Source: Neomelitea salexigens DSM 19753
GTDB lineage: Bacteria > Pseudomonadota > Gammaproteobacteria > Pseudomonadales > Spongiibacteraceae
Direction: 5' to 3'
Assembly: GCF_000422345.1 (NCBI RefSeq)
Contig: NZ_AULP01000005.1
Span: 124,001 to 188,000 of the forward strand
Length of the DNA stretch: 64,000 nucleotides
Under the pieces are notes generated by a model. It had not been told where the DNA came from. It saw nothing but the letters and a program-made list of their open reading frames with translations, and did no database searches. Shown piece by piece: positions 28,943 through 38,923 of this stretch (its first letter is position 1; each line of letters begins with the position of its first letter). The translations under genes were made by a program, and so were the position numbers.

Positions 28943-30304
28943 TTACATTGCCTCGATGGCCTCGGCAAGCGTGCTAACCGCGACGACATCAATTGCGATA
29001 TCGCCGCGAGGAGCATTCGCCTTGGGCACGATAGCACGGCTAAAGCCGTGCTTTTTAGCTTCTTGCAGGCGCTCCTGCCCACTGGGCACAGGACGAATTT
29101 CCCCCGACAAGCCCACCTCACCAAAAACGACCAAGTCTTCAGGCAAGGCGCGATCGCGAAAACTCGATACGATGGCGAACAACAGCGCCAGATCCGCCCC
29201 GGTTTCCAGCACCTTGACGCCACCAACCACATTGACGAACACGTCCTGATCGCCGAGCTGCAATCCTCCGTGACGGTGGAGCACCGCCAGTAACATCGCC
29301 AAGCGGTTCTGCTCCAGCCCCACCGCAACACGGCGTGGATTGCCGTAATTACTTTCATCGACTAAGGCCTGGATTTCTACCAACAGAGGACGAGTGCCCT
29401 CCCACACCACCATCACCACACTGCCTGCCGCCTGAACGTCACCGCGATTCAAAAAAATCGCCGACGGATTCTTAACCTCTTTCAGACCCTGCTCGGTCAT
29501 GGCAAACACACCCAGCTCATTCACCGCGCCAAAGCGGTTTTTATGGCCGCGCAGGGTGCGATAACGACTATCGCTACCCCCTTCAAACATAATCGAGCAA
29601 TCAATGATGTGCTCCAGCACCTTCGGCCCCGCCAGCGCGCCGTCCTTGGTCACATGCCCTACCATAATCAACACCGTATTGGTCTGCTTGGCAAAGCGCG
29701 TCAACGCCGCGGCACACTCTCGTACCTGAGAAACACTGCCGGGCGCCGAACTTACCTGCTCGCTGTGCAATACCTGAATGGAGTCGACCACCAACACCGA
29801 CGGCCGATGCTGATTCGCCTGCGCCAAAACCGCCTCCAGGCTGGTCTCGGAGTACAGCTGCAATTCCTCTGCCGACAAACCAAGACGGCGTGCGCGCAAG
29901 GCCACTTGCTGCAGTGACTCCTCCCCCGTGACGTACAGACAGCGGCTGCGCGCCGCCAAGCGGCACAGCACCTGCAGCAACAAGGTGCTCTTTCCCGCCC
30001 CGGGGTGACCGCCAAGCAGCACCGCCGAGCCCGGCACAAAGCCACCGCCGAGCACCCTGTCCAGCTCTTCAAAACCGCTGGCAATGCGCGGTAAATCCTC
30101 TATTTGAACGCTCGACAGACTTTGCAGCTCGCCGACAGCGCCAGCATAGCCTTGGCGCCCAGCAGGAGCCGAGGCGGCACTTGCCGCAGCCAAACGCACC
30201 TCGGTAAGCGTATTCCAGGCGCCACAGTCCTGACACTGGCCTTGCCACTTGCGATGGTCGGAACCGCAATCACTACAAACATAGGCTGTTTTGGCCTTCG
30301 CCAT
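28943..30304 (-). CDS. radA: DNA repair and recombination protein RadA
   Basis: 453 residues (E. coli 460). A DnaB-like branch-migration helicase in recombination. The N-terminal zinc finger has C10, C13, C24 and C27. Walker A is GGHPGAGKS (98-106), the RadA-specific GHKNRFGAVNELGVF lies mid-protein, and the C-terminal Lon-like domain ends with EVGLSGEIRPVPSGQERL. It is convergent with mrcA and divergent from the DnaT-like gene 77 bp away. Confidence 0.96.
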   Translation of the reverse strand: MAKAKTAYVCSDCGSDHRKWQGQCQDCGAWNTLTEVRLAAASAASAPAGRQGYAGAVGELQSLSSVQIEDLPRIASGFEELDRVLGGGFVPGSAVLLGGHPGAGKSTLLLQVLCRLAARSRCLYVTGEESLQQVALRARRLGLSAEELQLYSETSLEAVLAQANQHRPSVLVVDSIQVLHSEQVSSAPGSVSQVRECAAALTRFAKQTNTVLIMVGHVTKDGALAGPKVLEHIIDCSIMFEGGSDSRYRTLRGHKNRFGAVNELGVFAMTEQGLKEVKNPSAIFLNRGDVQAAGSVVMVVWEGTRPLLVEIQALVDESNYGNPRRVAVGLEQNRLAMLLAVLHRHGGLQLGDQDVFVNVVGGVKVLETGADLALLFAIVSSFRDRALPEDLVVFGEVGLSGEIRPVPSGQERLQEAKKHGFSRAIVPKANAPRGDIAIDVVAVSTLAEAIEAM

Positions 30305-30381
30305 ACTTAGTACTCCGCTGCTGTGCTGACAGAACAGGCGACTAGCCCGTACAATACTCTGCCAAGTGAGGATAATGATTC

Positions 30382-31524
30382 ATGTCGGCGCCACTACTGG
30401 AAAGACCCCTACTGGTATCGCCCACTCTGGCAGCAACCATTGGCCTGGAGTGTGCCCTGCTATACCAGTTGCTCGCCGACTGGCAACCCCTGCTGGAAGT
30501 CCGTCCACGCCAGGGCCAAGACTGGTTACTTATCGACCGTCAGCGGCTCGAAGAACAACTGCCGTTCTGGCAAAGCGCCGATATTGACCGTCTGCTTCAA
30601 CAACTCCACGACCAGGGGCTCATTATTATCGGCGGCGCGCTGATCAGCAATGCCCGCAACATTCGTTTTGCCATGCCCGCTCAGCAAACCGGTGCCCCCC
30701 AAAACGCCCCAGCTCGCCCGGCATCAACACGGCCCGAACCAACAGTGCGCAGCAGCGCACCCGCCCAAGCCGTTCCCGGGCGCCAGCTTATCAGCGCCGA
30801 TTGGCGGCCCGACCCCGCTGCCGTTGAATATCTCACCCGCTTTAACCGGGTGAGCAACCAATTTATTGAAGCTTGTATACCCGAGTTCATCGCCCACTAC
30901 CGCGAAAGCGGCGAAGCAAGAAGCTCTTGGAGCAGCACATTCAGCCAATACGTCAGCCGCCGCTGGAAAAAACAACAATACGCTGAAATCGAGCAAGCCC
31001 GGCATCAGGTCATTGACAATCACTGGCGGCCCAGCCGCGATGCCCTGGAGATACTGCTGCGCGACGGCATTAGCGAGCACTTTATCGAAGATGCTATTCC
31101 CGAATTCATCCTTTACTGGCGCGAGCGCGGCACGCAAGATAGCAACTGGAACTCACGATTTCTGCAACACATTCGGCTGCAGTGGGCGCGATACACCAAT
31201 GCGGTCAGTCACGAAAAAGCCCATGTGCCAATCAGCAGCAACTGGCAACCGAGCCCGGAAGTGTTTGAAATTCTGCGTATGGCGCGGATTGACGCCGACT
31301 TTGCCCGGGAGCAAATTCCCGAGTTTATCTTGTTTTGGCGTGACAGCGGCCAAACCCAACGCTCCTGGAATACAAAGTTTCTGCAACATGTAAAATACCG
31401 CTGGGCCCACAGCCACCAACTGGACAAATACGATGCACGACAGCAAAAAGCTTCTGGATCAAGCCAAGCAGCAACTGGCTTCATCGACAAGCACACCGAC
31501 CGAAGCTGGGCCGACGGCCTCTAA
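30382..31524 (+). CDS. Replication protein with an N-terminal winged helix and three tandem DnaT-like domains
   Basis: 380 residues. Residues about 8-96 look like the winged helix of phage replication initiators (IGLECALLYQLLADW, then LLIDRQRLEEQLPFW and DRLLQQLHDQGLIII). After a Pro/Ala linker (98-133) come three related DnaT-like ssDNA-binding modules at about 135-199, 209-272 and 281-344. Each carries W-x-P, IPEFI, a WR/YR-x(2)-G turn, SW/NW and F-x-Q-x-V/I. The usual protein has one such module. GAGGA lies upstream of the ATG. The 3' end overlaps the lambda P-like gene by 92 bp. I infer a role in loading DnaB at the origin or at stalled forks; no experiment is implied. Confidence 0.8.
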   Translation: MSAPLLERPLLVSPTLAATIGLECALLYQLLADWQPLLEVRPRQGQDWLLIDRQRLEEQLPFWQSADIDRLLQQLHDQGLIIIGGALISNARNIRFAMPAQQTGAPQNAPARPASTRPEPTVRSSAPAQAVPGRQLISADWRPDPAAVEYLTRFNRVSNQFIEACIPEFIAHYRESGEARSSWSSTFSQYVSRRWKKQQYAEIEQARHQVIDNHWRPSRDALEILLRDGISEHFIEDAIPEFILYWRERGTQDSNWNSRFLQHIRLQWARYTNAVSHEKAHVPISSNWQPSPEVFEILRMARIDADFAREQIPEFILFWRDSGQTQRSWNTKFLQHVKYRWAHSHQLDKYDARQQKASGSSQAATGFIDKHTDRSWADGL

Positions 31525-32101
31525 GCCACTGCCGGATAAGAGCGCTGTTATCGACGCCATCAACCGCATGTTTGCGGAGTTTGAGCTCGTCTATCACAAC
31601 CAATACAACAAAGCCTTCGCAAACGCCGAAAAGCTCTCTTACGCCAAAAAACTGTGGTTCAGTAACCTTTGCCACATTCCACCAGAGCAAATTACCGCAG
31701 CCTGTCACCGCGCCATTCGCGAGTCTGAGTTTTTGCCGACGATCAAAGGCATTCTGAAATACTGCGAGCCCGATGACCAAGCGCTTGGCCTGCCTGACCC
31801 CCACAGCGCCTATGTAGAGGCCTGTCGGGCACCGTCACCGAAAAACGAATATCGCTGGTCCCACCCCGCGGTCTATCACGCCGGGCGAAAAAGCGACTGG
31901 TATTTCCTGGCAAACAACACCGAGCAGCAGGCATTCCCGGTATACAAGCGCCACTATCAGGCGCTATGCGAGCAAGTACGCAAAGGTCAGGCACTCGAAC
32001 CCCCTCATCCAGAGGCACTTCCCGCGCCGGAGGCCAAGCCCCTGGACCCGGAAGAACAGCGCCGCCGAATGCGGGAAATGCGCAGCAAACTGAATATCTA
32101 A
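31433..32101 (+). CDS. Lambda P-like replicative helicase loader homologue
   Basis: 222 residues resembling the phage lambda P family. A central helical domain reads VIDAINRMFAEFELVYHNQY, then AKKLWFSNLCHIPPEQITAA and RESEFLPTIKGILKYC, matching the P-family W...i..eqi......seF.P....f...C pattern. The N-terminal 35 residues are Ser/Thr/Pro-rich, and the C-terminus is a basic RRRMREMRSKLNI. Translation from ATG 31433 overlaps the upstream DnaT-like gene by 92 bp in another frame, with no strong ribosome site, suggesting translational coupling; the next in-frame ATG (31568) would cut into the domain. No other phage genes surround it, so it looks domesticated. Confidence 0.75.
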   Translation: MHDSKKLLDQAKQQLASSTSTPTEAGPTASKPLPDKSAVIDAINRMFAEFELVYHNQYNKAFANAEKLSYAKKLWFSNLCHIPPEQITAACHRAIRESEFLPTIKGILKYCEPDDQALGLPDPHSAYVEACRAPSPKNEYRWSHPAVYHAGRKSDWYFLANNTEQQAFPVYKRHYQALCEQVRKGQALEPPHPEALPAPEAKPLDPEEQRRRMREMRSKLNI

Positions 32102-32185
32102 AACGGCCGTGCAGGCCGCCGTTACAGCGGATACAATAACGCCGCACGCGCGCAATCAGCGCCCAAGCCCCTCGGGACAAAGACT

Positions 32186-32935
32186 ATGGCAGACGACAAA
32201 ACAACCCACTTTGGCTTTAAGACCGTCAATCGCGGTGAAAAAGTAAACATGGTGGCCGGCGTATTTCATTCGGTCGCCGGCAAATATGACTTGATGAACG
32301 ATCTGATGTCAGGGGGCATTCACCGGCTTTGGAAGCGTTTCACCATCGAACTTTCCGGCGTCCGACGCGGCAATAGCGTGCTCGACATCGCGGGCGGTAC
32401 CGGCGATTTAGCGGCCAAATTCAGCCGCTTGGTCGGCAGTGAGGGCAAGGTTGTGCTCGCCGACATCAACGATTCTATGCTGCAGGTGGGGCGCGAAAAA
32501 CTGACCAATCGCGGCATTGTCGGCAATATTGAATACGTGCAGGCCAACGCCGAATGCCTGCCCTTCCCGGACAATAGCTTCGACTGCATTACCATCGCCT
32601 TTGGCCTGCGCAACGTCACCGACAAAGACGCCGCGCTGCGCTCTATGTTGCGCGTACTGAAGCCAGGCGGGCGTTTGCTGGTGTTGGAATTCTCCAAGCC
32701 AACCAATGAATTAATGAGCAAGGTCTACGACCGCTACTCCTTCGATATTCTGCCTCGCATGGGCAAGCTCATCACCAATGACGAAGACAGCTACCGCTAT
32801 CTCGCCGAGAGCATTCGCATGCACCCGGACCAGGAAACCCTTAAGGAAATGATGACCGAAGCCGGTTTTGCCGAGGTCCGCTACCACAATATGACGGCCG
32901 GCGTGGTTGCCGTTCACCGGGGCGTCAAGCCGTGA
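32186..32935 (+). CDS. ubiE: Ubiquinone/menaquinone C-methyltransferase
   Basis: 249 residues (E. coli UbiE 251). It methylates the quinone ring using SAM. Signatures: [40 protein letters not shown] at the SAM site, [20 protein letters not shown], and the C-terminal [17 protein letters not shown]. First gene of ubiE-ubiJ-ubiB; its stop overlaps the ubiJ start. Confidence 0.97.
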
Positions 32936-37498: not shown

Positions 37499-38923
37499 CT
37501 AGTAGCCGGGATCTTCGTAATCGCCAAAGGCGAGATTCTCAAAGCGCGTAAATTTACCAATAAAGCTCAGCCTTGCGGTCCCGATGGGGCCGTTACGCTG
37601 CTTGCCGATAATAATTTCCGCAACGCCTTTGTCTTGCGTTTCTTCGTTGTAAACCTCATCACGATAGATAAACATGATGACGTCGGCATCCTGCTCGATC
37701 GCTCCCGATTCACGCAAATCTGAGTTCACCGGGCGTTTATTAGGTCGTTGCTCCAGCGCGCGGTTTAGCTGTGACAGTGCAACCACTGGGCAATCGAACT
37801 CTTTGGCAATCCCTTTGAGCGAGCGCGATATTTCGGAGATTTCCGCGGTTCGCCCCTCGCTCCCCTTGCCGGCCACCTGCATCAGCTGCAGGTAATCGAG
37901 CATGATCATGCCGATACTGCCATGCTCCCGGAGCACTTTGCGCGCTCGCGAGCGCACTTCAGTAGGGGTCAATGCGGCGGTATCATCGATAAACAACGGC
38001 CGATCTTTCAACTTACTTACCGCGGCGCTCAGCTTCGGCCAATCTTCTTCTTCCAGCTTGCCGCTGCGCACCCGCCCCTGGTCGATTTTGCCCACTGACG
38101 ACAACATCCGCATCATCAGCTGACTGGCGGGCATTTCCATACTGAACACCAGTACGGGCTGCTCGTATCGCAACAGGACGTTTTCCACCAGGTTCATGGC
38201 AAAGGTTGTCTTACCCATCGATGGTCGCGCTGCGACGATGACCAGGTCCGACTTCTGCAAGCCAGAGGTCATCTCATCGAGTTTTTCAAAGCCCGTGCTT
38301 AAACCGGTAATTGCATCGTCGTTGTTGAACAGCTCGTCAATTTTATCAACGGCTTCCTTCAACAGCGGATTGATCGGCTCCAGGCCGCCCGCTTTCGGGC
38401 GCTCCTCAGCGATCTGCATAATGCGACGTTCGGCTTCGTCCAGCACCTCGTCGCTGCTTCGCCCCTCGGGGTTAAAGCTCGTATCGGCAATGGAGTTGGC
38501 CGCAGAGATCAGCGAGCGAAAGATCGAGCGCTCACGCACGGCTTGCGCATAGGCGCGGATATTCGCGACCGACGGCGTCCCGGTGGCAATTTCGGCAAGG
38601 TAGGCGGTGCCACCCACCTCTTTGAGCTGCCCGTTGCGCGCCAGGGTTTCTGCCAAGGTGACAACATCAATCGGCTGCTCTTGCTCGACCAGCTGACTCA
38701 TACAGGCGTAAATCAGACGGTGCTCGGGGCGAAAGAAATCGCCCTCGCCAACCATATCGGCAACCGAGTCCCAAGCTTCACCGGCAATCATTAAGCCGCC
38801 CAGCACCGACTGCTCCGCTTCCAGAGAGTGCGGAGGCAATTTCAATTTAGCGAAGTCACCGTCATCAAATTCCGGCGGCGATTCAGATTCTGGATAGGCG
38901 TCAGCTTGCACAGCCACACTCAC
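37499..38923 (-). CDS. dnaB: Replicative DNA helicase
   Basis: 474 residues (E. coli 471). The N-terminal primase-interacting domain (PPHSLEAEQSVLGGLMI) is followed by a linker and the RecA-like ATPase with Walker A RPSMGKTT (233-240), IMLDYLQLM (Walker B) and SQLNRALEQRPNKRP. It opens the fork in the 5'-3' direction. Translation starts at GTG. It is the likely client of the lambda P-like protein encoded 5.4 kb away. Confidence 0.97.
   Translation of the reverse strand: MSVAVQADAYPESESPPEFDDGDFAKLKLPPHSLEAEQSVLGGLMIAGEAWDSVADMVGEGDFFRPEHRLIYACMSQLVEQEQPIDVVTLAETLARNGQLKEVGGTAYLAEIATGTPSVANIRAYAQAVRERSIFRSLISAANSIADTSFNPEGRSSDEVLDEAERRIMQIAEERPKAGGLEPINPLLKEAVDKIDELFNNDDAITGLSTGFEKLDEMTSGLQKSDLVIVAARPSMGKTTFAMNLVENVLLRYEQPVLVFSMEMPASQLMMRMLSSVGKIDQGRVRSGKLEEEDWPKLSAAVSKLKDRPLFIDDTAALTPTEVRSRARKVLREHGSIGMIMLDYLQLMQVAGKGSEGRTAEISEISRSLKGIAKEFDCPVVALSQLNRALEQRPNKRPVNSDLRESGAIEQDADVIMFIYRDEVYNEETQDKGVAEIIIGKQRNGPIGTARLSFIGKFTRFENLAFGDYEDPGY

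Follow-up and report, generated by a model that had tools for sequence, protein, structure and literature searches.

DopC and DopE, a probable helicase-loading gene pair with a triple DnaT array and an O-type tail, in Neomelitea salexigens and its relatives

What do a DnaT-like gene and a lambda P-like gene do when they overlap each other on a bacterial chromosome? The 64,000-nt stretch of Neomelitea salexigens DNA analysed here (the window) carries such a pair on the plus strand. A sequence-only reading of the window had described two overlapping frames at 30382-32101, and both were found there: dopC (30382..31524), which according to its open reading frame and domain profiles encodes a 380-aa protein, and dopE (31433..32101), encoding a 222-aa protein of the lambda P type, the two sharing 92 nt (31433..31524). 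The dopC start matches the consensus start among relatives. The presumed client helicase, dnaB (37499..38923, minus strand; NCBIfam replicative DNA helicase), lies 5.4 kb from the pair, as had been read. The scanned neighbours are all housekeeping genes (mrcA, radA, ubiE, ubiJ, ubiB, hisI, hisE, a TatB-like gene, tatC, dnaB, pilM, pilQ and aroB, these names being partly inferred from domains) and no phage gene occurs among them, in agreement with the same reading, so that the locus has the look of ordinary chromosome. Among named relatives Spongiibacter marinus is the closest, with a DopE that is 97% identical, and NCBI taxonomy places Spongiibacter within the order Cellvibrionales.

On its profile matches and modelled fold, DopE is assigned to the lambda P family, as had been recognised from its sequence. 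It matches PF06992 (E 3.1e-13) and the PHROG family 'P-like helicase loader' (phrog_109, E 6.1e-27), and a DopE profile scores lambda P itself at 37.8 bits (with E counted over two sequences only). When its AlphaFold2 model (mean pLDDT 80) was searched with Foldseek, the first five among the best 50 of 128 rows (E up to 10) were lambda P chains from DnaB-P complexes with a probability of 1.00, three of them below E 0.001 (best E 1.6e-5) and with TM-scores of 0.33-0.52 by query length and 0.39-0.58 by target length; the other 45 of the best 50 rows have a probability of 0.10 or less. The SPP1 replisome organizer (1no1) matched the DopE profile at E 0.083 and was set aside. Distant P relatives occur in phages.

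DopC begins with a predicted winged-helix domain (aa 14-97, 30421..30672, plus strand), in line with the earlier reading. Residues 7-84 match the PHROG family 'DnaD-like helicase loader' (phrog_6493, E 3.4e-7), and the AlphaFold2 model (mean pLDDT 79, with low confidence at 102-132 and 351-380) has winged-helix-like secondary structure over residues 14-97. The best Foldseek neighbours, 4pql, 4pt7 and 5kbj, bear titles that name a DNA-binding protein, an initiator and a Rep-DNA complex; they reach probabilities of 0.97-1.00 at E-values of only 0.05-0.5, no neighbour fell below E 0.001, and no DnaT chain stood among the best 50 rows. The apparent resemblance of the domain to initiator-type winged helices is a lead rather than proof. 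In families f2, f8 and f34, as well as at the host loci L107 and L109, DopC shows no such winged helix, so the domain is not needed in every lineage.

Three PF17948 DnaT modules follow in tandem, all over the curated cut-off (E 3.7e-70), which bears out the modules read from the sequence: module 1 at 30790..30984, module 2 at 31009..31203 and module 3 at 31228..31419, all on the plus strand. A profile comparison also links the modules to the E. coli DnaT structures 4ou7/4ou6 (E 0.001), and DopC and E. coli DnaT are alike in this C-terminal ssDNA-binding module family; they differ in that a single DopC chain combines a winged helix with three such modules. The ssDNA-binding residues of E. coli DnaT are F124, Y127, W128, K133, F135, K143 and R146, and PMC4132743 gives almost no ssDNA binding for the Y127A/W128A double mutant. 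Across 96 different DopC proteins, the base-contact residue F124 is present in all three modules of every protein (96 of 96 each), and W128, also a base contact, in 83, 96 and 96 (modules 1, 2 and 3); the Y127 position is Y or F in 81, 96 and 96, and the K143 position is K or R in 68, 94 and 87. The loop residues K133 and F135 are not kept (R146 lay outside the mapped stretch). Module 1 of the window is degenerate, with H and Y at the Y127/W128 positions and T at K143, whereas module 2 reads F-x-x-Y-W with R at the K143 position and module 3 F-x-x-F-W with K. PMC13377028 describes DnaT C-terminal domains, four of which were seen, as a filament that surrounds lagging-strand ssDNA and takes two nucleotides at each interface.

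The three-module architecture had been called unusual, which does not hold within this group. Of 80 named loci, 71 have a single ORF with three modules (one such ORF is cut), three encode four and three encode two (one of these, L132, being apparently cut); modules are split between two ORFs in two further loci and none was detected in one. Four-module DopC proteins were noted at L086, L159, L162 and L178 (Teredinibacter, Candidatus Endobugula sertula, IMCC1989 and one further genome), and single-module DopC in loci of families f2, f6, f8, f26, f34 and f37. In 101 three-module proteins, a number that includes duplicates between our two locus sets, modules 2 and 3 lie 71 to 74 residues apart, start to start, in every case (73 or 74 in 96 of them), and modules 1 and 2 lie 70 to 92 residues apart. 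In a module tree of few columns and weak support, the nearest rows to modules 2 and 3 of the window are modules 2 and 3 of other families; the array is therefore probably older than the radiation of the group.

The end of DopC carries a tail (DRSWADGL, 31498..31521, plus strand), which in relatives reads D-R-S-W-A or something close to it. As a loose pattern ([DE].{0,3}W in the last 30 residues) matches 75/617 viral control ORFs, the tighter D-x-[STDN]-W was used; within the last 45 residues it is present in 117/120 DopC frames, the three exceptions being cut or split frames, and in 0/209 neighbour genes and 9/1457 other ORFs of the same loci. It was found in 7/66 phage ORFs at the O position (7/30 where P scores 100 bits or more) and in 7/614 controls. 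The D-x-S-W tail is common to some phage O proteins, not to all. The O protein of phage PAJU2 has the C-terminal end NDTSWAVGLEQDLF, and that of lambda LTNTDWIYGVDL / LDLTNTDWIYGVDL. A lambda amber allele giving 294 of the 299 O residues is inactive according to PMC6022878, by which the last five residues are needed for activity. These five sit just after T-D-W-I (D-x-D-W), not within it, so that the allele speaks for the end of O as a functional site and not for the tryptophan in particular.

The DopC tail is encoded inside the dopC/dopE overlap. With starts picked mechanically, the overlap measures 89 or 92 nt in 50/77 named loci, and the dopE start codon is ATG in 69/77. Among eight sequences from Spongiibacter and Zhongshania, conservation at third codon positions of dopC is 0.915 within the overlap, compared with 0.701 in the 300 nt before it, which indicates that both frames are constrained. 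In phages PAJU2, VW-6S and lambda the annotated O and P genes share 1 to 4 nt, in contrast to about 90 nt in dopC/dopE; however, longer O/P frame overlaps (starts picked mechanically) exist in the viral contigs L203 (86 nt), L210 (112 nt) and L235 (103 nt), so that hosts may not be alone in having a long overlap. A Shine-Dalgarno-like site precedes dopE in only 11/77 named loci; the long dual-coding overlap thus recurs in many relatives, for the most part with no such site ahead of dopE.

How far the pair is a fixture of its lineage was read from relatives. Of 17 relatives from the same genus, 16 gave a DopE match, and the one without it is a genome of 84% completeness. dopC and dopE occur together in 39/40 loci of a first set and in 79/80 named loci, a set that was selected through DopE and that has some genomes in common with the first. 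The exception in the first set, L093, is a second P-like gene whose genome carries the pair at L092; the exception among the named loci, L155, begins inside dopE. The fetched stretch includes radA in 22/40 and 42/80 loci and dnaB in 15/40 and 19/80. dopC/dopE is a resident chromosomal pair conserved in the lineage. This bears on the possibility, raised by the sequence-only reading itself, that the genes are prophage debris, namely leftover phage O and P genes lacking a host role. Debris would fit the membership of both genes in phage families and the distant relatives of P in phages, yet phage genes are missing among the scanned neighbours, relatives keep the same chromosomal block in many loci and both frames of the overlap are constrained; the debris explanation is rejected on synteny and conservation, and we give it next to no credence. 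As a separate observation, lambda P matches number nine, four and four in three genomes of family f34 (G132, G053 and G109), which may reflect prophages in addition to the resident pair.

We then consider which other loaders the cell possesses. In the window's own assembly (3.44 Mb, rated 99.99% complete), the genome-wide search for dciA (PF05258) gave no match, though a very divergent DciA could escape it. A search for IstB/DnaC-type proteins gave three weak matches, which we take, from their sequences, to be DnaA, RarA and Lon; a hidden DnaC was rejected on this reading, and the genome-wide check for dnaC/dnaI left no recognisable DnaC-type AAA+ protein. Lambda P matches a single locus, and the only DnaT domains in the genome are the three modules of DopC. 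At the level of the order (145 genomes, completeness 90 or more), DciA matches occur in 43 genomes (40 over the cut-off) and DnaT-domain matches in 95; the two never occur together (0/145), where 28 co-occurrences would be expected if they were independent, a count drawn from related genomes that is to be read as a pattern and not as a clean probability. Seven of the 145 have neither match, which implies that the searches miss some loaders. A bulk PF06992 search gave 33/145 and missed the window's genome, whose single-genome search gave the E-value cited above, and this count was not used. One DciA match (G044:C24:98828-99013) falls within a 1745-residue open frame.

A pair of this kind was reportedly proposed and named dopC/dopE by Brezellec et al. 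(2017, in Genome Biol Evol, evx111), and to our knowledge that proposal rests on phylogeny and this kind of system is still without experimental test. Brezellec 2016 gives Cellvibrionales as the order holding only organisms without dna[CI] and dciA, and DopE is named beside DciA as a loader family in a 2026 paper (PMC13326638). The window's pair resembles the published one in kind: both are chromosomal, of the lambda O/P type, and belong to an order for which dciA and dna[CI] are reported to be lacking. The guess that the window holds dopC/dopE gains support from that report on the order, from the lack of a DciA match, from the mutual exclusion of DnaT and DciA, from the conserved chromosomal block and from the structural matches to lambda P. 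We conclude that the two genes are very probably DopC/DopE, the pair for helicase loading in Cellvibrionales-type bacteria, with lambda-like O and P genes domesticated to take over from DciA or DnaC. The pair had thus already been proposed in print, and its presence in Spongiibacter is supported here at the level of sequence. DciA and DnaC/DnaI, neither of which is recognised in this genome, would share with DopC/DopE the role of helicase loader. In titles and abstract beginnings, which covered few subscription papers, we met no three-module DnaT protein, DopC-type tail or Mu-phage copy of it; likewise, we know of no printed account of the near-fixed spacing of modules 2 and 3, the tail shared with O, the dual-coding overlap or the mobile copies with DnaT module and tail described below.

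We propose the following course of loading. DopE would bind DnaB as lambda P does and hold its ring open; the winged helix of DopC would bind duplex DNA or an initiator, and the DnaT array would wrap a short stretch of ssDNA, acting as a covalent segment of a DnaT filament of fixed length. Docking of the DopC tail on DopE would then bring DnaB to that ssDNA. Loading of this kind would take place at oriC and perhaps also at restarted forks.

The counterpart in phage lambda shares with dopC/dopE the P family and fold, the order of the O and P genes and the D-x-[STD]-W tail of O; no DnaT match was obtained in lambda O and no overall sequence match was seen between it and DopC. The lambda O gene holds the origin iterons, whereas dopC is without them. 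This difference weighs on the idea that DopC initiates replication at a cryptic origin within dopC, in the way that lambda O acts at ori-lambda. The O-like place of DopC in the pair and its winged helix would fit such a role, yet within 30100-32250 there is no iteron array: the repeats there are two-copy direct-repeat families only, several of them spaced like the protein modules, and no tandem array was found. A self-origin with iterons in dopC was rejected for want of such repeats, and an own-gene origin seems to us very improbable.

Relatives of DopC, as distinct from the pair, are found in mobile elements. Viral contigs scanned with a DopC alignment yielded five relatives, and 5/5 have two DnaT modules and a D-R-S-W-A tail. 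Four of these (L262, L263, L264 and L265, IMG/VR contigs) carry PHROG transposition families in a scan of 20 chosen proteins, which we presume to be MuA and MuB in L262, L263 and L265 and of the MuB type in L264; in the fifth, L261, the two modules and tail are fused with a segment known from phage proteins of replication initiation. A different N-terminus followed by one DnaT module and the tail occurs in an island of host G048 (L276:7391-8212), which holds an MmeI-type gene and a recombinase in a genome with its own dopC/dopE (L090), and on a Spartinivicinus ruber plasmid (L282:3590-4444). None of these seven stretches, each only part of its contig or record, contains a DopE-like ORF at E 0.01. 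The host loci L107 (7511-8092) and L109 (7273-7878) encode a DopC of the same minimal form as the viral proteins, with two divergent DnaT modules and the tail, and a winged helix was not detected in them. When 50,697 phage records were searched with DopC, five matches were obtained, all through the winged helix only; when a two-module phage protein was searched against 293 genomes, those inspected among the matches listed were resident DopC frames.

E. coli Mu replication needs PriA and DnaT, as stated in PMC3325207; by analogy, where the host has no DnaT of the E. coli type, a Mu-like phage could benefit from bringing a protein with DnaT modules and tail of its own. We tentatively suggest, as a possibility about which we are in some doubt, that the DnaT module with a D-x-S-W tail is a portable handle that calls the host loader: DopC would use this handle at oriC and at restarted forks, and the elements that move among DopCE bacteria (the Mu-like phages, the phage initiator, the island and the plasmid) would carry stripped copies, with one or two DnaT modules and the tail but without a loader, that capture the host DopE-DnaB to replicate themselves.

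The same observations on Mu also favour a reading of DopC as mainly an adaptor of replication restart, which would replace DnaT, PriB and PriC at PriA-bound forks, with another factor loading DnaB at oriC. PriA is present in the window's genome, and no match was found there to PriB or PriC; restart must accordingly run without these two or with unrecognised forms of them. This state of affairs and the DnaT modules would suit such an adaptor, as would the Mu-like contigs with their two-module protein and tail, given the need of E. coli Mu for PriA and DnaT. DopE, however, is a lambda P-type loader, other loaders were not found in the genome, and the winged helix resembles initiator domains, though weakly; we judge a restricted restart role unlikely. 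For the helicase-loading pair that we prefer, the failure to find PriB, PriC or another DnaT in the genome means that the DopC array may serve PriA-dependent restart as well.

A DopE tree of 45 rows groups the multi-module hosts in a single clade (99/95), which joins the single-module families f2, f8 and f34 (96/93), while the single-module families f6, f26 and f37 fall among phages. The AU test does not reject a topology with all the hosts in one group (p 0.096), and the DopC proteins of f6, f26 and f37 share the winged helix of three-module DopC (E 1.8e-20 to 1.8e-10, in a small set). One domestication or two would both be compatible with the DopE tree. On the IMG/VR contig L181, a DopE-like gene falls inside the multi-module host clade, and its upstream frame has the tail followed by extra residues.

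There is a basic gap in the understanding of how the replicative helicase is loaded where DnaC and DciA are both lacking. With no PriB, PriC or separate DnaT found, the manner of replication restart in these cells is a question too. The anatomy of DopC/DopE offers concrete parts for the study of loading: a three-bead DnaT array, a short tail, to which the phage copies point independently, and a lambda P fold.
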